Shown piece by piece: positions 18,525 through 29,457 of a DNA stretch of 33,834 bases. The notes below the pieces were generated by a model. That model was not told the origin of the DNA, made no database searches, and worked only from the letters and a program-made list of their open reading frames with translations. This DNA comes from Nevskia sp. Its GTDB lineage: Bacteria; Pseudomonadota; Gammaproteobacteria; Nevskiales; Nevskiaceae. The position numbers were made by a program, and so were the translations under genes. Location of the stretch: contig JADHNH010000032.1 of NCBI GenBank assembly GCA_016779605.1, forward strand, positions 1 to 33,834, given 5' to 3'. The first letter of the stretch is position 1. Every line of letters begins with the position of its first letter.

Positions 18525-19709
18525 TCAGGTGGGCGCGAATACCGCGCCGTCGACGAACCGGTCGGGGCCCATGGCGATGGTGCCGCCGCTGCCGCCGAGC
18601 GTCCAGGCGGCGGCATGGGTGCCTTCGGACTTGCGGTCCTCGCGCGGGGCGGCGGCGCCGACCTGCTGCGCCGCCAACCGGTAGAGGTCGGGCCGGTACA
18701 CCGCGGCGGCGACGGCGGCGCAATCGGCGTCGGCCGGCAGGGCGTGCCAGCGCCGCATCTGCTGCAGGAACCACTGCGCCTGCGACACCCAGGGGAAACC
18801 GGCGGCGCCGGCGTCGAACACCAGGCCGGGGCCGAACTCGCCCTCCGCCGCGCCGGGCTGCAGCGCCGCGGCGATGCAGGCGGGCGGGGCGTCGATGTAG
18901 CGGCCGTCGCCGAGCAGGCGCGCCGCCTCGGCGCGGTTTTCCGCGCGGTCGAGCCAGCGGTTCGCCTCGATGATCGCCGCGACCAGCGCCAAGTGCGTGG
19001 CCGGATGTGCCTGCGCCCAGGCGCGGGTGACGCCGAGCACCTTCTCGGGGCTGTTGTTCCAGATCTGGAAGCTGCTGACGATGCGCCGGCCCAGGCCGAG
19101 CGTTTCGGCGACTTCCGCCCACGGCGCGCCGACGCAGAAGCCGTCGATGCGGCCGGCTTCGAGCTGCGCGACCGCCTGCGGCGGCGGCACCGCGATGAGG
19201 TTGAGGTCGTGATCGGGCCGGATGCCGGCGCAGGCGAGCCAGTAGCGCAGCTCGTAGTTGTGCGTCGAAAAAGGGTAGACGTGGGCGAACACCGCCGACG
19301 GACGCCCGCTGGCGCGGTCCACTTCGATCACGCGCCGCAGCGCCTGCGCCCAGCCGAGCGCGCCGTGCTCGTCCGGCCGCCGCAAGGCCTGCAGGCGCCC
19401 GTGCAGCGCATTGGCGACGACGATCGAATTGCCGTTCAGGTTCAGGGTCAGTGCGGTCAGCATCGGCACCTGGACTGCGTCCAGGCCCAGCGTCGCCGCC
19501 AGCGGCATCGGCGCCAGCAGCTGCGCCGCGTCCAGCCGCTCGGCCACCAGCTTGTCGCGCACCGCGGCCCAGGCCCGCTCCAGCGCGATTTCCACCTCCA
19601 GCCCGTGGCGTGCGAAGAAGCCCTTGGCCTGGGCGACCACGATCGGCGCCGAGTCGGCCAGCGGCATGATGCCGACGCGGAGGAAATTCTTTTCGGGCAG
19701 CGCGGCCAT
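18525..19709 (-). CDS. nasS: Nitrate sensor NasS (NrtA-like substrate-binding protein)
   Basis: This 394-residue cytoplasmic relative of NrtA nitrate-binding proteins has no signal peptide (it begins MAALPEKNFLRVGIMPLADS). PIVVAQAKGFFARHGLEVEI, PFSTHNYELRYWLACAGI, RIDGFCVGAPWAEVAE and VSSFQIWNNSPEKVLGVT are family segments. In studied systems NasS binds NasT and holds it inactive; nitrate or nitrite binding frees NasT. It follows nasT by 32 bases in the same operon. The start at 19709 is the first Met where homology-like sequence begins. Confidence 0.93.
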   Translation of the reverse strand: MAALPEKNFLRVGIMPLADSAPIVVAQAKGFFARHGLEVEIALERAWAAVRDKLVAERLDAAQLLAPMPLAATLGLDAVQVPMLTALTLNLNGNSIVVANALHGRLQALRRPDEHGALGWAQALRRVIEVDRASGRPSAVFAHVYPFSTHNYELRYWLACAGIRPDHDLNLIAVPPPQAVAQLEAGRIDGFCVGAPWAEVAETLGLGRRIVSSFQIWNNSPEKVLGVTRAWAQAHPATHLALVAAIIEANRWLDRAENRAEAARLLGDGRYIDAPPACIAAALQPGAAEGEFGPGLVFDAGAAGFPWVSQAQWFLQQMRRWHALPADADCAAVAAAVYRPDLYRLAAQQVGAAAPREDRKSEGTHAAAWTLGGSGGTIAMGPDRFVDGAVFAPT

Positions 19710-19741: not shown

Positions 19742-20311
19742 CTACAGCAACTCGGCCGCGGCGATCAGTGCACGCGCGGCCTCGCCGATCTTGAGGCCGC
19801 GGTCCATCGCCATCTTGCGCAGCAGCTCGTAGGCCTGCGGCTCGTTCAGCGAGCGGCGCTGCATCAGCAGCCCCTTGGCGCGGTCGACGTCGCGGCGGTC
19901 GGCCAGGCGGCCGCGCGCCTCGTCGAGCTCGCGCTTGAGCGCCTGGTGCTCGTGGAAGCGCGCGATGGCCACTTCCAGGATCGGCTTGAGCCGCTGCGGG
20001 CTGAGGCCGTCCACCACGTAGGCGCTGACGCCGGCGCGAACCGCGCGGCGGATGGTGTCGCCGCCGGCGTCGCCGGCGAACATCACCACCGGGCGGGGGC
20101 AGTCGCTGGAGATGCGGTTGAGCGACTCCAGGGTGTCGCGGCCGGGCGCATCGACGTCGATCAGGATCACGTCGGGGGAGTGTTGCCGAACCGCAGGCAA
20201 CAGCTCGGCCTGCGTGTCCAGGCGCACGCAGACGGAATAGCCGGCCGCGCCCAGCGCCTGTTCGACCTGCTGCATGCGCGCAGGATCGTCGTCCACCAGC
20301 ATGATTCGCAT
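19742..20311 (-). CDS. nasT: ANTAR-domain antiterminator NasT
   Basis: This 189-residue response-regulator-like protein has a receiver domain (MRIMLVDDDPARM ... VILIDVDAPGRDTLESL; Asp-rich pocket present) over residues 1-120. A coiled-coil linker (HEHQALKRELDEARGRLADRR) follows, then a C-terminal ANTAR RNA-binding domain (VDRAKGLLMQRRSLNEPQAYELLRKMAMDRG). It should bind paired hexaloop hairpins in leader RNAs to favour expression of nitrate genes. The Met at 20311 is chosen because the receiver fold starts there; an in-frame ATG at 20422 would add 37 unlike residues. NasS is encoded immediately downstream. Its own leader carries a terminator and an ANTAR-like hairpin (20469-20516). Confidence 0.94.
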   Translation of the reverse strand: MRIMLVDDDPARMQQVEQALGAAGYSVCVRLDTQAELLPAVRQHSPDVILIDVDAPGRDTLESLNRISSDCPRPVVMFAGDAGGDTIRRAVRAGVSAYVVDGLSPQRLKPILEVAIARFHEHQALKRELDEARGRLADRRDVDRAKGLLMQRRSLNEPQAYELLRKMAMDRGLKIGEAARALIAAAELL

Positions 20312-20468
20312 CAGGGCGTGGACCAAGGCGCGGCGGCGCCCGGCGACCGGGTTCGGCTCCGCGCACTGTGCGCCTTCATCGGCGCGCGTGGCGGGGGCGT
20401 GCTGCTGCGGCCGTGCGCGCATCTTGCGCCCTGCGTGGTCGGCGTCTCATTCAGTTCCTGTCGCTCAT

Positions 20469-20516
20469 AAAAAAAGCCCTGCCGTCCAGACTCGACGGCA
20501 GGGCCCCGTTGCCCTG
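20469..20516 (-). promoter_or_regulatory. nasT leader: ANTAR-type hairpin overlapping an intrinsic terminator
   Basis: On the minus strand, CAGGGC-AACGGG-GCCCTG (20516-20499) is a 6-bp stem with a hexaloop carrying A1 and G4, the ANTAR target signature. Its 3' arm is also the first part of the terminator 5' arm (20504-20494). The terminator has a perfect 11-bp stem GCCCTGCCGTC/GACGGCAGGGC, a 7-base loop, then T7 (20475-20469). The two structures exclude each other. No gene lies upstream on this strand that would need a terminator here. A second hexaloop, AACGGC at 20562-20557, has only a weak stem (about 4 bp beyond a G-G mismatch). NasT autoregulation is inferred. Confidence 0.78.
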
Positions 20517-20845
20517 GCCTGCGGATCCCGGCTGCCCGATTGTTCCGCAAGGGATCGCCGTTCACCCACTGGCCGTCGATCCACGGTTACAAGCCAAGCA
20601 ATAAACCTGCCATCGGCTGGTAAGGTTGCCAGAACGCCAGTCGAGGGCTTCGGGGCGAGCGCGCGACGACCGCGGATGCGGCCATGCGCCATCTCGGCGC
20701 ACAACTCCGGAGCACGAGCGTGGCAAAAGTGCAGGAGCCATTGCCGCCCGGGCGCGGGAGCTCCTCAATCCACCCGCCATTAATCCGGAATCCGTCCGTT
20801 CGGGCGCGCCCGCCGCCGATGTTCGTTTCATGGCCCGTTAGTTGC
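20517..20845. other. Non-coding stretch between the divergent nasT and narK leaders
   Basis: I see no gene here. On the minus strand GATCCC/GGGATC (20523-20556) and TGCGGA/TCCGCA (20519-20548) can form alternative stems just upstream of the nasT ANTAR hairpin. A long-range AGGAGC/GCTCCT stem spans about 20732-20764. Promoters for both divergent transcripts must lie in or near this stretch, but no convincing -35/-10 pair or sigma-54 site was found. Confidence 0.5.
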
Positions 20846-20943
20846 TTATACGAGTCATCCAGGCAAAGGCGTCTGGTCAGCGGCTGGCAAGCCGCGCGCG
20901 GTCAACGGCGTCCGCTCCAAAGAATCCATCTCTTTACGGAGCG
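20846..20943 (+). promoter_or_regulatory. narK leader: two ANTAR-type hairpins and a Shine-Dalgarno-masking stem
   Basis: P1 is CCAGGC-AAAGGC-GUCUGG (20859-20876, 6 bp with one G-U). P2 is GCGGUC-AACGGC-GUCCGC (20898-20915, one U-U mismatch). Both hexaloops have A1 and G4. Between them lies GCGGCU-GGCA-AGCCGC (20880-20895). A later stem pairs 20913-20923 with 20931-20943 (11 bp, 2-base bulge, 7-base loop) and buries the GGAG ribosome site (20938-20941), 5 bases before the ATG. It shares 20913-20915 with P2, so P2 and masking compete. TTATAC at 20846-20851 is a possible -10 that would start the RNA just before P1. Confidence 0.75.
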
Positions 20944-20946
20944 TCC

Positions 20947-22344
20947 ATGAAACAAGTCCTGGCTTCCCTGCGGTGCGGCAACTGGCGCGCGCTGCTGGCG
21001 TGCTTCCTGTATTTCGACACCGGCTTCACCGTCTGGGTGATGCTCGGCCCGCTCGCGCCCTTCATCGGCAGGGACATCCGCATGAGTCCGGCCGAAACCG
21101 GCTTCCTGGTGGCGGTGCCGGTGCTGTCGGCGGCGATCCTGCGCGTCACCTTCGGCAACCTGTTCCAGTCGTATGGCGGGCGCCAGCTCGCGCTGGCCGG
21201 CATCGCCCTGTCGGCGATCCCGTCGCTGGTGCTGCTGGTGCTGCCGCATGCGCCGTCGTACACGCTGCTGCTGGTGCTGGGCGTGTTCCTCGGCGTGGGC
21301 GGTGCCAGCTTCGCGGTGGCGCTGCCGATGGCGGGCAGCAATTACCCGCCGCGCGTGCAGGGCCTGGTGCTGGGCCTGGCCGCCGCCGGCAACATCGGCG
21401 CGGTGCTCGACGGCTTCCTGTTTCCCACGCTGGCGCAGCACTATGGCTGGCAGCGCGCCACCGCGGCGGCGCTGCCGCTGCTGGCGCTCACGGCACTGGC
21501 GGTGTGGCTGTGGGCGCAGGACCGCAGCGTCAAGGCGCAGCGCAGCCCGCGCGCACTGGCCGGCTTTGCCGCCGCGCTGGCCGGCCTGGTCGGCCTGGTG
21601 CTGCTGGTGCACGCCGGCGTGTTCGGCGCCGGCAAGGCCGGGCTGCTGCTGCTGCCGCCGCTGGGCGCGGGCCTGGCCATCGCGGTGCTGCCGCGCGCCT
21701 ACCGGTCGGTGCTGGTCGAGCGCGACACCTGGGTGGTGATGCTGGTGTACAGCATCACCTTCGGCGGCTTCGTCGGCATGTCGTCGTATGTCAGCCTGCT
21801 GCTCACCACCCTGTACAAGATGTCGCGCATCGACGCCGGCCTGCTGATGGCGGCCTTCGCCTTCACCGGCGCCATGGTGCGGCCGGTCGGCGGCTGGCTG
21901 GCCGACCGCGTCACCGGCGTGCGCGCCCTGCTGGTGCTGCTGGCGGCGATCTCGGCGCTGGATTTCGCCTTCGCCGCGGTAATGCCGGCGCTGGGCGGCG
22001 GCATCGCGCTGCTGCTGTGCCTGTACTGCTGCTTCGGCCTGGGCAACGGCGCCACCTTCCAGCTGGTGCCGCACCGCTGGCGCGGCAGGACCGGCCTGAT
22101 GACCGGCATCATCGGCGCCGCCGGCGGCATCGGCGGCTTTTACCTGCCGGTGATCATGGGCATCGCCCAGGAAAGCACCGGCAGCTACCAGATGGGATTC
22201 GCCACCTTCGGCACCCTGGCCGCCGCCGCCTTCGCGCTGGTGGTGGTGCTGCGCACGCAGTGGCTGGAATGGGCGATGCCGGCGCACGAGCTGCCGCTGG
22301 CCGTCCGGCCCGACGCGATGCTCGAAGGCGCGCACGCCGAATGA
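20947..22344 (+). CDS. narK: Nitrate/nitrite transporter of the NarK/NasA MFS family
   Basis: This 465-residue protein has 12 predicted membrane helices. The two nitrate signatures are present: GVGGASFAVALPMAGSNYPP (about residues 118-137) and FGLGNGATFQLVPHRW (about 365-380). The substrate arginines sit in AAILRVTFGN (TM2) and GAMVRPVGGW (TM8). It imports nitrate for assimilation. The ATG at 20947 has GGAG 5 bases upstream, inside a masking hairpin; the open frame upstream of it covers the leader RNA. The stop overlaps an in-frame upstream ATG of nirB (ATGA at 22341-22344). It is the first gene of the plus-strand nitrate operon. Confidence 0.95.
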   Translation: MKQVLASLRCGNWRALLACFLYFDTGFTVWVMLGPLAPFIGRDIRMSPAETGFLVAVPVLSAAILRVTFGNLFQSYGGRQLALAGIALSAIPSLVLLVLPHAPSYTLLLVLGVFLGVGGASFAVALPMAGSNYPPRVQGLVLGLAAAGNIGAVLDGFLFPTLAQHYGWQRATAAALPLLALTALAVWLWAQDRSVKAQRSPRALAGFAAALAGLVGLVLLVHAGVFGAGKAGLLLLPPLGAGLAIAVLPRAYRSVLVERDTWVVMLVYSITFGGFVGMSSYVSLLLTTLYKMSRIDAGLLMAAFAFTGAMVRPVGGWLADRVTGVRALLVLLAAISALDFAFAAVMPALGGGIALLLCLYCCFGLGNGATFQLVPHRWRGRTGLMTGIIGAAGGIGGFYLPVIMGIAQESTGSYQMGFATFGTLAAAAFALVVVLRTQWLEWAMPAHELPLAVRPDAMLEGAHAE

Positions 22345-22418: not shown

Positions 22419-24980
22419 ATGCATCCCCTCCGCGTCGTCGTCGTCGGCAACGGCATGGTCGGCCACAAGCTGGTCGAGCAGCTCGCCGCCCGGCCCGCCA
22501 TGCACATCACCGTGCTGTGCGAGGAGCCGCGCCCGGCCTACGACCGCGTGCACCTGTCGGAGTTTTTCGCCGGCAAGAGCGCGCAGGACCTGTCCCTGGT
22601 CGAGCCCGGGTTCTTCGAGCGGCACCCGCAGCTGCAACTGCGCCTGGGGGCGCGCGCCGCGCAGATCGACCGCGCCGCCAGGCAGGTGACGCTGGCCGAC
22701 GGCGCGACCGTCGGCTACGACAAGCTGGTGCTCGCCACCGGCTCGTATCCGTTCGTGCCGCCGCTGCCGGGCAGGGAGCGTCCCGGTTGCTTCGTCTACC
22801 GCACCATCGAAGACCTGGAAGCCATCGCCGCGGCCGGCCGGCAGGCGAAGGTGGGCGTGGTGGTCGGCGGCGGCCTGCTGGGGCTGGAGGCCGCCAAGGC
22901 GCTCAAGGATCTCGGCCTGGCCACCCACGTGGTGGAGTTCGCGCCGCGGCTGATGGCGGTGCAGCTCGACGACGGCGGCGGCCGCATCCTGCGGCGCAAG
23001 ATCGAGCTGCTCGGCGTGACCGTGCACACCGGCCGCAACACCACCGCGATCGTCGACGGCGCGGACGCGCGCCACCGCATGCAGTTTGCCGACGGCGGCG
23101 CGCTGGAGACGGACCTGATCGTGTTCTCCGCCGGCATCCGCCCGCGCGACGAGCTGGCGCGCGCCTGCGGGCTGGCGGTGGGCGAGCGCGGCGGCATCGT
23201 GATCGACGAGGCCTGCGCGACCTCCGACCCGGACATCTACGCGGTGGGCGAGTGCGCCCTCTACTCGGGCCGCATCTACGGGCTGGTGGCGCCGGGCTAC
23301 CGCATGGCGGAAGTGGCGGCGGCGCGGATTGCGGCGGCGCTGGAGCCGCCGGCGGCCGAGCTGCCCCGTTTCACCGGCGCCGACATGAGCACCAAGCTCA
23401 AGCTGATGGGCGTGGACGTCGCCAGCCTGGGCGATGCGCACGGCGCCACGCCCGGCGCGCTGGCCTACAGCTTCGTCGACGAACGCCAGCAGGTCTACAA
23501 GAAGCTGGTGGTGAGCGAGTGCGGCAGGTACCTGCTCGGCGGCGTGCTGGTGGGCGCCGCCGAGGACTACGGCAGCCTGCTGCAGACCCTGCTGAACCGC
23601 ATGGAATTGCCGCCGCGGCCGGAAACGCTGATCCTGCCGCCGCTGGACGGCGACGCCAGGCCCGCCCTGGGCGTGGCGGCGCTGCCGGCCGCCGCGCAGA
23701 TCTGCTCGTGCAACAACGTCAGCAAGGCCGGCATCTGCGCCGCCGTCGACGGCGGCTGCACCACGCTGGGCGCGATCAAGAAGGCGACCAAGGCCGCCAC
23801 CTCCTGCGGCGGCTGCGGCCCGCTGGTGACGCAGATCCTCAAGCACGAGCTGGCCGCGCGCGGCGTGGCGGTGAGCAACCACCTGTGCGAGCACTTCCCG
23901 CATTCGCGCCAGGAGCTGTACCATCTGGTGCGCGTCGGCAACCTGCGCAGCTTCGACGAGCTGCTGGCGCGCCACGGCAAGGGCCGCGGCTGCGACGTCT
24001 GCAAGCCGGCCGCCGCCTCGATCCTGGCCTCGTGCTGGAACGAGCACGTGCTCAAGCCGCGCCACGCCAAGTTGCAGGACACCAACGACTACTACCTCGC
24101 CAACATCCAGAAGGACGGCACCTACTCGGTGATCCCGCGCGTGCCCGGCGGCGAGATCACGCCGGAGAAGCTGATCGCCATCGGCGAGGTGGCGCGCAAG
24201 TACCGGCTCTACACCAAGATCACCGGCGGCCAGCGCATCGACCTGCTCGGCGCGCAGGTGCAGCATCTGCCGCTGATCTGGAAGGAGCTGATCGAGGCCG
24301 GCTTCGAATCCGGCCACGCCTACGGCAAGGCGGTGCGCACGGTGAAGTCCTGCGTCGGCAGCACCTGGTGCCGCTACGGCGTGCAGGACAGCGTCGGCCT
24401 GGCGATCGAGCTGGAGAACCGCTACCGCGGCATCCGCTCGCCGCACAAGCTCAAGTTCGGCGTGTCCGGCTGCACCCGCGAATGCGCCGAGGCGCAGGGC
24501 AAGGACGTCGGCGTGATCGCCACCGAGAAGGGCTGGAACCTGTACGTCTGCGGCAACGGCGGCGTCAAGCCGCGCCATGCCGACCTGCTGGCGGCGGACC
24601 TCGACAAGGCGACCCTGCTGCGCTACGTCGACCGCTTCCTGATGTTCTACATCCGCACCGCCGACCGCCTGCAGCGCACCTCGGTGTGGCTGGAAAACCT
24701 CGAAGGCGGGCTGGACTACCTCAGGCAGGTCGTCTGCGACGACAAGCTCGGCATCGCCGCCGGGCTGGAAGCCGAGATGAAGCTGCTGGTCGACACCTAC
24801 GAGTGCGAATGGAAGAAGGCGATCGGCGACCCGGCGATCCTGCGGCGCTTCCGCACCTTCGTCAACAGCGACGCCGCCGACGCCGAGCTGAGCTTCGTCG
24901 AGGAGCGCGGCCAGCTGCGCCCGGCCACCGCCGAGGAGCGCGCGCTGGAGCGGCAGATGCCCGAACAGGCCGCCGCATGA
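22419..24980 (+). CDS. nirB: Assimilatory nitrite reductase large subunit NirB
   Basis: This 853-residue protein reduces nitrite to ammonium with NADH. It has FAD and NAD Rossmann domains (VVVVGNGMVGHKLVEQL at the start; VVVGGGLLGLEAAKAL at about 150). A BFD-like [2Fe-2S] domain has CSCNNVSK and CGGCGP near residues 428-470. The ferredoxin-sulfite/nitrite reductase half has CVGSTWCRYG and CTRECAEAQGKDVG, ligands of siroheme-[4Fe-4S]. GGCAGGAGA lies 6 bases before the ATG at 22419. Upstream in-frame ATGs (22341, 22353, 22365) would add MNPQMNPEMNPD and a linker. The stop overlaps the nirD-fusion start by 4 bases. Confidence 0.96.
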   Translation: MHPLRVVVVGNGMVGHKLVEQLAARPAMHITVLCEEPRPAYDRVHLSEFFAGKSAQDLSLVEPGFFERHPQLQLRLGARAAQIDRAARQVTLADGATVGYDKLVLATGSYPFVPPLPGRERPGCFVYRTIEDLEAIAAAGRQAKVGVVVGGGLLGLEAAKALKDLGLATHVVEFAPRLMAVQLDDGGGRILRRKIELLGVTVHTGRNTTAIVDGADARHRMQFADGGALETDLIVFSAGIRPRDELARACGLAVGERGGIVIDEACATSDPDIYAVGECALYSGRIYGLVAPGYRMAEVAAARIAAALEPPAAELPRFTGADMSTKLKLMGVDVASLGDAHGATPGALAYSFVDERQQVYKKLVVSECGRYLLGGVLVGAAEDYGSLLQTLLNRMELPPRPETLILPPLDGDARPALGVAALPAAAQICSCNNVSKAGICAAVDGGCTTLGAIKKATKAATSCGGCGPLVTQILKHELAARGVAVSNHLCEHFPHSRQELYHLVRVGNLRSFDELLARHGKGRGCDVCKPAAASILASCWNEHVLKPRHAKLQDTNDYYLANIQKDGTYSVIPRVPGGEITPEKLIAIGEVARKYRLYTKITGGQRIDLLGAQVQHLPLIWKELIEAGFESGHAYGKAVRTVKSCVGSTWCRYGVQDSVGLAIELENRYRGIRSPHKLKFGVSGCTRECAEAQGKDVGVIATEKGWNLYVCGNGGVKPRHADLLAADLDKATLLRYVDRFLMFYIRTADRLQRTSVWLENLEGGLDYLRQVVCDDKLGIAAGLEAEMKLLVDTYECEWKKAIGDPAILRRFRTFVNSDAADAELSFVEERGQLRPATAEERALERQMPEQAAA

Positions 24981-26554
24981 GCGCGCGCACATTGTGGCGC
25001 ACGGTCTGCGCGCTCGACGAGATCCTGCCCGACACCGGCGTGGCCGCGCTGGTCGGCGGCAGCCAGGTGGCGGTGTTCCGCATCGGCGAGTCCGAGGAGG
25101 TCTACGCGATCGGCAACCGCGATCCGTTCAGCGGCGCCAACGTGCTGGCGCGCGGGCTCACCGGCGATCTCGGCGGCGAGCTGGTGGTGGCCGCGCCGGT
25201 GTACAAGCAGCACTTCCGCCTGCGCGACGGCGGCTGCCTGGAAGATGCGGGCGCCGGCGTGCCGGTGTACCCGGTGCGGGTGTTCAACGGCGCGGTGCAG
25301 GTCGGGCTGGCGCTGGAAAGCGCCGCGCCGGTGCGGCGGCCGCGCCTGGTGATGATCGGCAACGGCATGGCCGGCATGCGCGTGATCGAAGAGCTGCTGC
25401 GGCTGGCGCCGGACGCCTACGACATCACCGTCTTCGGCGCCGAGCCGCACGGCAACTACAACCGCATCCTGCTGTCGCCGGTGCTGGCGGGCGACAAGCG
25501 CTTCGACGAGATCGTGCTGCACGACCTCGCCTGGTACCGGCGCCAGGGCATCAGCCTGCACGTCGGCGACCCGGTCGCGGCGATCGACCGCGTACGCCGC
25601 GTGGTGCGCACGCAGGGCGGAGCGGAAGCCGGCTATGACCGCCTGCTGATCGCCACCGGCTCCTCGCCCAACCGCCTGCCGATCCCCGGCAACCAACTGC
25701 CCGGCGTCACCACCTTCCGCGACCAGTCGGACCTGCGCGCCATGCTCGACGCCTGCGGCGGCCGGAGCCGCGCCGCGGTGATCGGCGGCGGCCTGCTCGG
25801 CCTGGAGGCCGCCGCCGGCCTGGCCCAGCGCGGCATGGAAGTCACCGTGATCCACAGCGGCGAAGTGCTGATGGAGCGCCAGCTCGACGCCTATGCCGGC
25901 GCGCTGCTGCGCCGTTCGCTGGAACAGCGCGGCATCGCCTTCGTCACCTCGGCGCGCAGCGTTGCGGTGGAGGGACAGGGGCATGCGTCAGGCGTGCGCC
26001 TGGCCGACGGCAGCCTGGTGCCGGCCGAACTGGTGGTGATGACCGCCGGCGTCACCCCGAACATCGGCCTGGCGCAGGCCGCCGGCATCCAGTGCGGCCG
26101 CGGCATCCTGGTGGACGACACCCTGCAGACCTTCGACCCGCGCGTCTACGCGGTGGGCGAGTGCGTGCAGCACCGCAACGCCACCTTCGGCCTGGTGGCG
26201 CCGCTGTGGGAGCAGGCGCGCGTCTGCGCGGCGCACCTGGCGGGCACCGGCCACCTGCGCTATTCCGGCTCGGTGGTCGCCACCTCGCTCAAGGTCACCG
26301 GCATCGACCTGCTGTCGGCCGGCGAGTTCGCCGGCGGCGAGGGCTGCGAGGTGCTGCTGCTGCGCGACCCCGAGGCCGGCATCTACAAGCGGCTGGTGCT
26401 CAAGGACCGCAGGATCCGCGGCGTGCTGCTCTACGGCGACATCGCCGACGGCCCCTGGTACCTGGAGCTGATGCGCGAGCGGCGCGACGTGGGCGGCCTG
26501 CGCGACCGGCTGCTGTTCGGGCGCGCGCAGGCCGACGTGCAGGCCGCGGCCTGA
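24977..26554 (+). CDS. NirD fused to an FAD/NAD(P)-dependent oxidoreductase
   Basis: This 525-residue fusion has two parts. Residues 1-110 are NirD, the Rieske-fold small subunit of nitrite reductase, with the family segment AIGNRDPFSGANVLARGLTG and KQHF but without Rieske Cys/His ligands, as usual for NirD. Residues about 118-525 are a pyridine-nucleotide disulfide-type oxidoreductase with VMIGNGMAGMRVIEELL (FAD), VIGGGLLGLEAAAGLAQRG (NAD(P)), and VYAVGECVQHRNATFGLV. This half resembles the N-terminal half of NirB and NasB-type electron-transfer subunits. It may feed electrons to NasA. It starts on the nirB stop (ATGA). NirD is usually a separate protein of about 110 residues. Confidence 0.9.
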   Translation: MSARTLWRTVCALDEILPDTGVAALVGGSQVAVFRIGESEEVYAIGNRDPFSGANVLARGLTGDLGGELVVAAPVYKQHFRLRDGGCLEDAGAGVPVYPVRVFNGAVQVGLALESAAPVRRPRLVMIGNGMAGMRVIEELLRLAPDAYDITVFGAEPHGNYNRILLSPVLAGDKRFDEIVLHDLAWYRRQGISLHVGDPVAAIDRVRRVVRTQGGAEAGYDRLLIATGSSPNRLPIPGNQLPGVTTFRDQSDLRAMLDACGGRSRAAVIGGGLLGLEAAAGLAQRGMEVTVIHSGEVLMERQLDAYAGALLRRSLEQRGIAFVTSARSVAVEGQGHASGVRLADGSLVPAELVVMTAGVTPNIGLAQAAGIQCGRGILVDDTLQTFDPRVYAVGECVQHRNATFGLVAPLWEQARVCAAHLAGTGHLRYSGSVVATSLKVTGIDLLSAGEFAGGEGCEVLLLRDPEAGIYKRLVLKDRRIRGVLLYGDIADGPWYLELMRERRDVGGLRDRLLFGRAQADVQAAA

Positions 26555-26707: not shown

Positions 26708-26727
26708 GCTGCTTGCGGAATTGTCAG

Positions 26728-29457
26728 GTGACTTCAGCGGTTCGCACCACCTGCCCCTACTGCGGCGTCGGCTGCGGCGTGCTGGTGACGCCTGCCGCGG
26801 ATGGCGGTGCCGCCATCGCCGGCGATCCGGACCATCCGGCCAACTTTGGCCGCCTGTGCTCGAAGGGCGCGGCGCTGGGCGAGACGCTGGGCCTGGCCGG
26901 GCGCTTGCTGCATCCGCAGATCCGCCGCGCGGACGGCAGCGGCGGATGGCGCACGGAGCCGGTGGAGTGGGGCGCCGCACTCGATCATGTGGCCGAACGC
27001 TTCACCGGCATTATGCGGCAGCACGGGCCGGAGTCGGTGGCGCTGTACGTGTCCGGCCAGTTGCTCACCGAGGACTACTACGTCGCCAACAAGCTGGTGA
27101 AGGGCTACTTCGGCACCGCCAACATCGACACCAACTCGCGGCTGTGCATGTCCTCGGCGGTGGCGGGTCACAAGCGCGCCTTCGGCGAGGACGTGGTGCC
27201 GTGCAGCTACGCCGACCTGGAACAGGCGGACCTGGTCGTGCTGGTCGGCTCCAACACCGCCTGGTGCCACCCGGTGGCGTACCAGCGCATCGTCGCGGCG
27301 CGCGAGCGCAATCCGCAGGCGCGGCTGGTGGTGATCGACCCGCGGCGCACGCCGACCTGCGACCTCGCGGACCTGCACCTGCCGCTGCGCGCCGGCACCG
27401 ACGTGGACCTGTTCAACGGCCTGCTGGCCCACCTGGACGGGACGGGCGCGCGCGACGCGGCGTTCGTCGACGCCCGCACGCGTGACGCGCAAGCCGCGCT
27501 TGAAGTCGCCCGCCGCGGCGGCGGTGTGGAGCAGGTGGCGCAGCGCTGCGGGCTGGACGCCGGCAAGCTGGCGCAGTTCTACGCGCTGTTCGCCGCCACG
27601 CCGCGCGTGGTCACGCTGTTCTCGCAGGGCGTGAACCAGTCCAGCAGCGGCACCGACAAGGTCAACGCCATCATCAACTGCCACCTGCTCACTGGCCGCA
27701 TCGGCAAGCCCGGCGCCGGGCCGTTCTCCATCACCGGCCAGCCCAACGCGATGGGCGGGCGCGAAGTGGGCGGGCTGGCCAACATGCTGGCGGCGCACCT
27801 GGAGCTGGGCGAGCCGCAGCACCGCCGGCTGGTGCAGGCGTTCTGGGGCAGCCCGCGCGTCGCCGACCGGCCGGGGCTCAAGGCGGTGGAACTGTTCGAA
27901 GCGATCGGCCAGGGCCGCGTGAAAGCGGTGTGGATCATGGCGACCAACCCGGCGGTGAGCCTGCCGGATGCGGACCGCGTGCGCGAGGCGTTGCGCGGCT
28001 GCGAGTTGGTGGTGCTGTCGGACTGCATGGCCGGCACCGACACGGCGCGGCTGGCGCACGTGCTGCTGCCGGCCGCCGCCTGGGGCGAGAAGGACGGCAC
28101 GGTGACGAACTCCGAGCGGCGCATTTCGCGCCAGCGCGCCTTCCGCGCCGCGCCGGGGCAGGCGCGGCCGGACTGGTGGATGGTCTGCGAGCTGGCCCGG
28201 CGCATGGGCTTTGCGGAAGGCTTCGCATTCCGCTCGGCCCACGAAATCTTCCTGGAGCACGCGCGGCTGTCGGGGTGGCTGAATGCCGGGAATGGGGAAT
28301 CGGCAGTCGGGAATCGTCAAAGCGGCACGGTCTTCAGGGCTTTCAACGTCGAAGGATTGTCCGACTTGAGCGCAGACCAGTACGAGAGGCTCGAGCCGGT
28401 GCGCTGGCCGGTGCTGCGCACCGCCGCTGGCGCTGCTTCTACGGTTGCCGATTCTCCATTCCCGATTCCCGGCCGCATGGCCTTCGTACCCACGCCGCCG
28501 CGGGCCCCGGCCCATGCCCCCGACGCCGAGTACCCACACGTCCTCAACAGCGGTCGCATCCGCGACCAGTGGCACAGCATGACGCGCACCGGCAGCGCGC
28601 CGCGCCTGGCCGCGCACCGGCCGGAGCCGTTCGTCGACATCCACCCGCAGGACGCGCTGGAGGCGGGGGTGCGCCACGGCGAGCTGGCGCGGCTGTCCTC
28701 CCGCTGGGGCGCGATGGTGGCGCGTGTGCGCGCGGGCGACGAGCAGCGGCGCGGCGACCTGTTCGTGCCGATCCACTGGAGCGACGCCTTCGCCGCCGAC
28801 GCGCGCGCCGGCGCGCTGGTCAACCCGGCGGTGGACCCGGTGTCGGGCGAGCCGGAGTTCAAGCACACGCCGGTGCGCATCGAGCCTTTCGGCGTCGACT
28901 GGCACGGCTTCGTGCTGCACCGCGAACCGCTGGACGAGTCCGCGCAATTGGCCGCATTCGCGTACTGGGCGCGGTCCGTCGGCGGCGGCCACCACCGTTA
29001 CGAATTCGCCGCGCGCGGCCGCCGGATCGACTGGGCCGCGTGGGCGCGCGCGCGGCTGGGCGGGGCGGGCGAGTGGGTGGATTACGCCGACCCCGGCGAA
29101 GGCATCTACCGCGCCGCGCGCCTGGCTGCCGGCAAGCTGCAAAGCTGCCTGTTCGTCTCGCCGCGGCCCGACCTGCCCGGGCGCGAATGGCTGGCCGGAC
29201 TGTTCGCCCTGGAACGGCTGGGGGCTGCCGAACGGCGCGCGCTGCTGTCCGGCCGGCCGTCAGCCGGGGCGGACGCCGGTGCCACCGTGTGCGCCTGCTT
29301 TGCCGTCGGCCGGCGCACGCTGCAAAGGGCGATCCGCGAGCAGGGCTGCACCACGCCGCGCCAGCTCGGCCAGAAGCTGCGGGCAGGCACCAACTGCGGT
29401 TCCTGCCTGCCCGAGCTGCGCCGGCTGATCGAGGAGACCCTGGCGCCGGCAGAGTGA
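26728..29457 (+). CDS. nasA: Assimilatory molybdenum nitrate reductase catalytic subunit
   Basis: This 909-residue enzyme reduces nitrate to nitrite in the cytoplasm. The N-terminal [4Fe-4S] motif is TTCPYCGVGCGVLV ... LCSKG. Molybdopterin-domain segments include TANIDTNSRLCMSSAVAGHK, LVGSNTAWCHP, QGVNQSSSGTDKVNAI and IMATNPAVSLPDADRV. The C terminus has a BFD-like [2Fe-2S] domain (VCACFAVGRR ... GTNCGSCLPEL). It uses the GTG at 26728; an in-frame TTG lies at 26713, and neither has a strong ribosome site. Residues 519-532 and 574-582 are translated dispersed repeats. Electron supply by the NirD-FAD fusion is plausible. Molybdenum cofactor needs MoeA, encoded nearby. Confidence 0.95.
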   Translation: MTSAVRTTCPYCGVGCGVLVTPAADGGAAIAGDPDHPANFGRLCSKGAALGETLGLAGRLLHPQIRRADGSGGWRTEPVEWGAALDHVAERFTGIMRQHGPESVALYVSGQLLTEDYYVANKLVKGYFGTANIDTNSRLCMSSAVAGHKRAFGEDVVPCSYADLEQADLVVLVGSNTAWCHPVAYQRIVAARERNPQARLVVIDPRRTPTCDLADLHLPLRAGTDVDLFNGLLAHLDGTGARDAAFVDARTRDAQAALEVARRGGGVEQVAQRCGLDAGKLAQFYALFAATPRVVTLFSQGVNQSSSGTDKVNAIINCHLLTGRIGKPGAGPFSITGQPNAMGGREVGGLANMLAAHLELGEPQHRRLVQAFWGSPRVADRPGLKAVELFEAIGQGRVKAVWIMATNPAVSLPDADRVREALRGCELVVLSDCMAGTDTARLAHVLLPAAAWGEKDGTVTNSERRISRQRAFRAAPGQARPDWWMVCELARRMGFAEGFAFRSAHEIFLEHARLSGWLNAGNGESAVGNRQSGTVFRAFNVEGLSDLSADQYERLEPVRWPVLRTAAGAASTVADSPFPIPGRMAFVPTPPRAPAHAPDAEYPHVLNSGRIRDQWHSMTRTGSAPRLAAHRPEPFVDIHPQDALEAGVRHGELARLSSRWGAMVARVRAGDEQRRGDLFVPIHWSDAFAADARAGALVNPAVDPVSGEPEFKHTPVRIEPFGVDWHGFVLHREPLDESAQLAAFAYWARSVGGGHHRYEFAARGRRIDWAAWARARLGGAGEWVDYADPGEGIYRAARLAAGKLQSCLFVSPRPDLPGREWLAGLFALERLGAAERRALLSGRPSAGADAGATVCACFAVGRRTLQRAIREQGCTTPRQLGQKLRAGTNCGSCLPELRRLIEETLAPAE
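28285..28473. repeat. GGGAATCGG-type repeats translated within nasA
   Basis: The left copy (28285-28323) is in plus orientation and encodes AGNGESAVGNRQS. The right copy (28447-28473) is inverted and encodes ADSPFPIPG. 28448-28471 is identical in reverse to 6213-6236, and 28308-28323 is identical in reverse to 6274-6289. The roughly 120 bases between the copies encode FNVEGLSDLSADQYERLEPV, which looks like normal NasA sequence. Both copies keep the frame open. Confidence 0.85.

Follow-up and report, generated by a model that had tools for sequence, protein, structure and literature searches.

The window analysed here is a stretch of 33,834 nucleotides (nt) from Nevskia sp. (contig JADHNH010000032.1 of assembly GCA_016779605.1, positions 1 to 33,834), and our subject is the leader of its narK gene and the manner in which that leader might answer to the ANTAR protein NasT. 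The gene (20947..22344, plus strand) encodes a NarK-type nitrate/nitrite transporter of the major facilitator superfamily, 465 amino acids in length, that matches TIGR00886 with 266 bits (below the cut-off of 311.7) and PF07690 with 113 bits. It stands first in an operon order on the plus strand that continues with nirB for the large subunit of nitrite reductase (22428..24980, start approximate; NF011565, 1327 bits), a gene in which a NirD domain is fused to a flavin adenine dinucleotide (FAD) oxidoreductase (24977..26554; TIGR02378, 105 bits, with oxidoreductase matches), and a nasA/nasC-like gene for a molybdoenzyme of the nitrate-reductase type (26713..29457; NF047855, 412 bits, below the cut-off of 1100). 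Divergent from these, on the minus strand, are nasT (19742..20422, start possibly 20308), with receiver and ANTAR domains (PF00072, 54.5 bits; PF03861, 66.9 bits), and behind it a nasS-like gene for a candidate nitrate sensor (18525..19709; PF13379, 266.8 bits). The first-pass annotation, made from the sequence alone, had named NasT as the neighbour of narK, and the domain matches bear this out; the protein is also the sole PF03861 match in the genome, encoded divergently beside the narK leader.

Upstream of the leader lies a sigma54-like promoter (TGGCCCG-TTAG-TTGCT, 20831..20846, plus strand), and a consensus scan found no sigma70 site. From the position of the sigma54-like site the narK transcript would start near 20857, 2 nt ahead of the first leader hairpin, P1; the first-pass annotation had held a start downstream of P1 to be fatal to its proposal, and the promoter implies one before it. 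A weak NtrC-like site (TGCGCCATCTCGGCGCA, 20685..20701, plus strand) has 2 mismatches to the consensus; the search for such sites was uninformative, as the window yields 54 matches where 59.6 would be expected, and only its position favours this one.

The leader itself, likewise on the plus strand, had been proposed to contain two hairpins of 6 base pairs (bp), each with a hexaloop carrying A at its first position (A1) and G at its fourth (G4), and an 11-bp stem masking the Shine-Dalgarno sequence (SD). P1 (20859..20876) is exactly as described, with six pairs, one of them G-U, and the loop AAAGGC (20865-20870). P2 (20898..20915, GCGGUC-AACGGC-GUCCGC) does possess A1 and G4 in its loop AACGGC (20904-20909), but not the six pairs, as a U-U mismatch (20902/20911) beside the closing pair leaves 1 + 4. 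Folding places a GC-rich hairpin between the two (20880..20895). The SD, GGAG (20938..20941), is located five bases ahead of the ATG at 20947 and 22 nt from the 3' end of P2, which itself contains neither the ribosome-binding site (RBS) nor the start codon. The masking stem (20913..20943) hides GGAG as claimed but is not continuous: it is composed of CGCUCC/GGAGCG (20913-20918/20938-20943) and AAAGA/UCUUU (20919-20923/20931-20935), that is 6 + 5 bp, with an unpaired AC as a 2-nt bulge. Its overlap with P2 at 20913-20915, which makes the two structures rivals, is confirmed from the sequence.

When the leader is folded freely, P1 and the masking stem both form and the SD is paired with a probability near 1, but P2 is absent, with a small GCGC hairpin in its place; about 6 kcal/mol must be spent to make P2 form. 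The folding energy of the leader is ordinary (z -1.78, 10/200 shuffles equally stable). The pair of hexaloop hairpins, on the other hand, is not a product of chance, since one was found in the 33.8 kb of the window, both strands, against 0.003 expected from 300 dinucleotide shuffles. Given that no U-run follows P2, and that no terminator was found on the plus strand between 20360 and 21000 of the window, we did not class the narK leader as an ANTAR antiterminator.

Leaders of the same layout were found by pattern in nine relatives among 85 genomes of the order, and three further members were added with a covariance model built from those nine; the 17 pattern matches comprised ten class members (the window included), two leaders of terminator type (G001 and G007, where G numbers denote genomes and L numbers loci) and five others. 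The class is defined by a sigma54-like site, P1, a P2 with a mismatch at position 2 of its stem, an end of P2 that is 26-31 nt from the start codon, the lack of a U-run and a narK-type gene downstream, and the leader of the window has every one of these features of layout. Its 13 members, from one family and three genera, are the window, G002, G005, G010, G011, G013, G014, G015 and G016 (one genus), together with G021, G032, G063 (genus g5) and G066 (g11). All share the GGC-N8-TGC spacing of the promoter, a P1 loop 8-11 nt past the assumed start, 31-39 nt between P1 and P2 and 15-22 nt between the end of P2 and the SD; within 110 nt behind the P2 loop their T runs are at most 2 or 3 long, and a narK-type gene follows in each. 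Downstream of the 12 leaders other than the window's is a second narK-type gene, which shares 75-100% identity with its counterpart in G032, with nirB next in the eight loci fetched that far and nirD- and nasA-like genes in four. Because class-wide patterns run against 369 sampled genomes gave chance-like matches, besides a few terminator-type leaders, the narrow spread of the class holds only for the patterns and samples used. A minus-strand candidate in G021 (L225, near 5255) was excluded from the class, its loops being AGCGCT and AAGGTC and the next frame not narK-like by eye. The same place carries a sigma54-like site and a P2-like hairpin (GCGGCC-AAGGUC-GUCCGC) with the position-2 mismatch of the class.

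The first-pass annotation had suggested looking among relatives for compensatory changes in P1, P2 and the masking stem, and they are found in P1. Its pairs 1-6 are standard in all 13 leaders, through stems as different as CCAGGC/GUCUGG (window), CGUGGUU/GAUCACG (most members) and CGGUUC/GAACCG (G066); over the seven distinct hairpins 94.6% of cells are paired and six of eight pairs have changed on both sides, while none of 500 shuffles matched the paired cells, none of 500 matched the covariation score, and sliding the partners leaves 32-50% paired. By contrast, hardly any variation is seen in the P2 stem, GCGG-N-C/G-N-CCGC, which is conservation and no evidence of covariation, and the masking stem is shared with G066 only.

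What distinguishes P2 is position 2 of its stem, which is mismatched in 13/13 members (U·U, C·A, C·U, G·A or U·C), whereas it is paired in 42/42 rows where P2 is followed by a terminator arm or U-run. This comparison covered 56 hexaloop-pair rows from fetched loci, many of them closely related; the other 14 rows are 11 distinct leaders of the short class, a truncated terminator-type locus (L112, complete in L234) and two chance-like rows from L227. The mismatch falls within a region of protein contact, since EutV is described as touching the three closing pairs of the stem at their backbone (PMC8934654). As independent changes are few, the kept mismatch taken by itself is a hint and falls short of proof. 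We consider it very likely that the narK leader of the window, a member of a newly defined class without terminators, is a target of a NasT-type ANTAR protein.

Leaders of the terminator type occur close by. The divergent nasTS transcript has a sigma54-like promoter of its own (TGGCAGGTTTATTGC, 20598..20612), followed by a P1-like hairpin (20551..20567) with the loop AACGGC (20562-20557) and a closing G-G mismatch, a P2 of 6 bp (20499..20516, CAGGGC-AACGGG-GCCCUG) and an intrinsic terminator with U7 (20469..20507) that overlaps P2, all on the minus strand, and the region folds with z -3.67. This arrangement suggests that NasT governs its own nasTS operon by classical antitermination, and the window thus seems to combine terminator-type and terminator-less leaders in a back-to-back arrangement. 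No similar leader was found when 17 further nasT genes were examined, save for a common AGCGCC hairpin in G021 and G032, in G032 with a U-run; in G002, G011, G013 and G015 a terminator-type ANTAR leader lies on the same contig as the class leader.

The eight closest narK orthologs, of which the window's is one, differ in what precedes them. Those of G001, G007 and G009, genomes of the same genus and the closest of the orthologs with ANTAR leaders, are preceded by a sigma54-like promoter, by hexaloops numbering two or three and by a terminator with T8-T9; those of G006, G012 and G017 have no recognisable ANTAR leader; and in G004 narK comes last in its operon, where a terminator-type ANTAR leader precedes nirB (L234, 10200-10400). 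In L003 and L005, both terminator-type, a third A1/G4 hexaloop hairpin (ACAGGC and AAAGGC) stands ahead of P1 upstream of narK. The NirB of the window clusters with those of G001, G007 and G009, whose operons are of terminator type (support 99/98), and the NasT proteins of these three form a clade separate from the 16 others, the window's included (100/100). The NasT of the window is 57-63% identical to those of genomes with short-class leaders and 42% identical to those of G001, G007 and G009. These relationships suggest that the leader came together with its regulator, a reading limited by there being one contrast only and by the long NasT branches of the window and G004.

To relate the hairpins to the ribosome site we took coupling to be the difference in the cost of holding the stretch from the SD to codon 3 unpaired when P1 and P2 are forced and when they are free. 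Forcing them cuts this cost by 2.4-8.0 kcal/mol in 13/13 leaders, where base-shuffled downstream sequences gave mean cuts of 0.5-1.7, and in the window the drop is 4.5 kcal/mol (11/400 base shuffles). In nine terminator-type controls, for which the ribosome site was set as -9 to +9, the reduction, counted in the same way, lay between -3.5 and +0.4 for eight and was +2.7 (2/100) for L110. With P1 and P2 forced, the start codon opens further in 12/13 leaders, and the SD gains openness in four, namely those of the window, G066 (0.00 to 0.24), G015 and G016. The proposal that P2 opens the ribosome site therefore stands in part: the cost of opening falls throughout the class and not in eight of the nine controls, but the SD stays mostly paired.

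A mechanism can be put forward on this basis. Without free NasT the leader would fold with its SD paired, as in the window and G066, or with the region of the start codon paired, as in the other members, and P1 and P2 would not both be formed. Nitrate would release NasT from NasS, NasT would bind the hexaloops of P1 and P2 and thereby hold the hairpins, and the held hairpins would weaken the occluding fold so that the 30S subunit could load. The mismatch would keep P2 weak and hence dependent on NasT. We give about an even chance to the reading that NasT controls the translation of narK in this manner, probably by activation, where both binding and direction are predictions of the model and where the start site, NasT binding and the assignment of the on and off states are matters that we infer. 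The claim of the first-pass annotation that the output is translational, in place of the classical antitermination, accordingly fares well as to the lack of a terminator and the P1 and P2 coupling predicted in 13/13 leaders, but less well as to the masking stem, which is not conserved.

A number of results weigh against translational activation or against the strength of its support. A covariance model built from the nine pattern-found leaders, R1, which is blind to the window, gives no full-length match there; its best match in the window is P2, with 13.5 bits and E 0.039. In the base shuffles only four leaders fall below 0.04 singly (G032 3/400, G063 9/400, the window 11/400 and G066 12/400, the rest being at 25-96/400), and the Fisher method, which combines six spread members to a p of 0.0005 and eleven members to 2e-5, gives values that are too small, as the leaders are related. 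Dinucleotide shuffles of the short segments are weaker still, at 75/400 for the window and a combined p of 0.005 for eight leaders. With P1 and P2 forced, the SD becomes less open in 9/13 leaders and is still mostly paired, and the window is the exception as regards the start codon, which goes from 0.70 to 0.47 unpaired. The probability that the SD of the window is unpaired rises from 0.00 only to 0.10 once P2 is formed, and to 0.08 with P1 and P2 both forced; it stays hidden because a remnant of 3 + 5 bp and other partners persist, the remnant (UCC/GGA and AAAGA/UCUUU) being worth -2.7 kcal/mol alone. It is doubtful from these calculations that the formation of P2 would suffice to free the SD without bound protein, and the mixed picture base by base slightly lowers our confidence in translational activation. 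As to the lineage of the regulator, the NasT of G004, a genome with a leader of terminator type, falls with the window's in the tree, although its branch is very long.

The off state is a further difficulty, in that its pairing lacks conservation. For the window and G066 the probability that the SD is paired to the 3' arm of P2 or the spacer is 1.00, but for the other 11 it is 0.00-0.44, and the masking stem, present in 2/13 leaders and shorter in G066, is not borne out as a conserved element, recurring in G066 alone among the 12 relatives. Hiding of the SD was rejected as a common trait, as in nine relatives 126-200 of 200 spacer shuffles were at least as hidden; among ten leaders the SD of the window alone exceeds its shuffles in hiding (3/200 as hidden). 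In nine other members the 5' arm of P1 can pair with the start-codon region, with six pairs standard in 9/9 and changes on one side only, and the 3' arm can pair with CUCACGU in 7/9, the CUCACGU half being missing in G021 and G032. This alternative helix, in which the P1 arms pair with the start codon and CUCACGU, holds within the genus but was rejected: it has no covariation signal, its covariation score being reached by 282/500 shuffles and its paired cells by 16/500. The members thus seem to share P1, P2 and their position, and to reach occlusion via different pairings; the masking stem of the window is one local solution, and the idea of the first-pass annotation is right in kind.

It is reasonable to consider how else such leaders might work. 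Control could be transcriptional without an intrinsic terminator, with Rho terminating in the leader or in early narK and NasT preventing this either directly or via translation. The missing U-run terminator leaves that route open, and a block in translation usually goes together with Rho polarity. A Rho model alone leaves the 26-31 nt that separate P2 from the start codon and the cheaper opening of the ribosome site unexplained, however, and we regard it as unlikely, although not far-fetched. Alternatively, NasT might repress translation, P2 with its bound protein blocking the loading of 30S from a position upstream of the ribosome site. Actinobacterial ANTAR RNAs that lie over the RBS or AUG are described as translational repressors (PMC8164766), the forced hairpins make the SD less open in most of the class, and in Bradyrhizobium a narK with predicted NasT hairpins is higher in a nasT mutant (PMC6759348), a finding that also counts against activation. 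On the other hand P2 stops well ahead of the start codon and does not include the SD, the total cost of opening falls in every member, and nitrate or nitrite is described as freeing NasT (PMC3795266), just when the operon is needed; on balance repression appears decidedly unlikely.

That the leader is a decayed antiterminator, which has lost its terminator and retains hairpins that are remnants or that bind NasT without output, would agree with the full terminators of the closest narK-nirB operons of the same genus (G001, G007 and G009). It would not account for a P1 and P2 geometry that 13 leaders from three genera have retained, nor for the compensatory changes in P1 and the kept mismatch in P2, and we find it quite improbable. 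Ordinary antitermination at a missed terminator further into narK is very improbable, as the T runs behind P2 are short in 13/13 leaders and the plus strand from 20360 to 21000 has no terminator, even though the described targets of NasT use, or are assumed to use, antitermination (PMC5424462, PMC6759348). Translational activation can also be extended, more tentatively and with rather less than an even chance in our estimation, to a scheme in which one NasT would have two outputs from one intergenic region: on the minus strand it would antiterminate nasTS, and on the plus strand it would activate the translation of the narK operon by way of a terminator-less leader, in whose P2 a selected mismatch would make the hairpin dependent on NasT, the class travelling with the NasT lineage and not with the operon.

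Rfam gave nothing at the gathering threshold in the window, nor in 20 of the relatives' loci. A weak match to RF03032, the narK RNA, at 20832-20875 (18.8 bits, E 0.1, below the gathering score of 43.2) has an alignment in which 30 model positions, undisplayed, stand against 4 bases. The consensus of this family has a sigma54-like GGCaC...UUGC at its start and CAAAGACGUCGC at its end, from which part of the family may be promoter. In L153 (1489-1624) a match to RF00625, the Pseudomonas small RNA P11 (26.7 bits, cut-off 70), lies over a sigma54 site and ANTAR leader; its consensus consists of a sigma54-like start, the hairpin CuuCAACGauGaag, CAAAGGCGUCC and a terminator arm, and P11 may be an attenuated NasT leader, not an independent small RNA. 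The 80 named narK loci come mainly from Paraburkholderia; in many of them a sigma54-like site lies 71-131 nt upstream of narK with no ANTAR pair between, so these loci do not test the model. Many of the Paraburkholderia narK leaders (L033-L109, Burkholderiales) have their sigma54-like site about 110-130 nt upstream and common blocks such as CCGGUGC and AAUCAGUUU..GAGGAU before the start, and perhaps answer to another leader regulator.

The narK leader of the window resembles the NasT/NasS leaders of Paracoccus nasA and Bradyrhizobium nosR and the NasR/nasF system of Klebsiella, in which a NasS-NasT pair, or NasR, goes with leader hairpins before nitrate or denitrification genes (PMC5424462, PMC6759348), and the antitermination leaders fetched from relatives have the sigma54-like promoter and A1/G4 hexaloops in common with it. 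Unlike these antitermination leaders, the class of the window has no terminator, a near-constant distance from P2 to the start codon, and the kept mismatch. The EutV-type motif (Ramesh 2012; Walshe 2022) is similar in its dual hexaloop, its A1 and G4 and the overlap of its second hairpin with a competing element, but the described EutV targets act on terminators. ANTAR proteins in general are known above all for antitermination. NasT is itself described as an antiterminator (PMC5424462, PMC6759348, PMC3795266), and we found no report of NasT control of translation in the open-access literature, which leaves out most subscription papers.

Translational control by ANTAR proteins has already been proposed elsewhere: terminator-less ANTAR matches near ribosome sites are described as possible translational targets (Ramesh 2012, PMC3369931), and a survey of actinobacteria found about 37% of ANTAR RNAs to overlap the start codon or RBS, and refers to work on mycobacteria in which translation is repressed (PMC8164766). 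The class of the window is like these actinobacterial RNAs in having hairpins at the ribosome site and a predicted translational output. Many of the actinobacterial motifs contain the RBS or AUG, however, and binding is described as repressive, whereas the motif of the window lies upstream and is predicted to make opening cheaper; with P2 ending ahead of the SD, the window is not in the 'sequester' group of that survey. What is defined here is a class of NasT leaders without terminators.

If the reading is correct, NasT would act at the level of translation in proteobacteria, perhaps as an activator, in addition to the repression described in actinobacteria. The kept mismatch in P2 provides a simple mark for finding further members of the class, and the presence of both types of leader in one genome means that the same NasT could be tested on two outputs at once.

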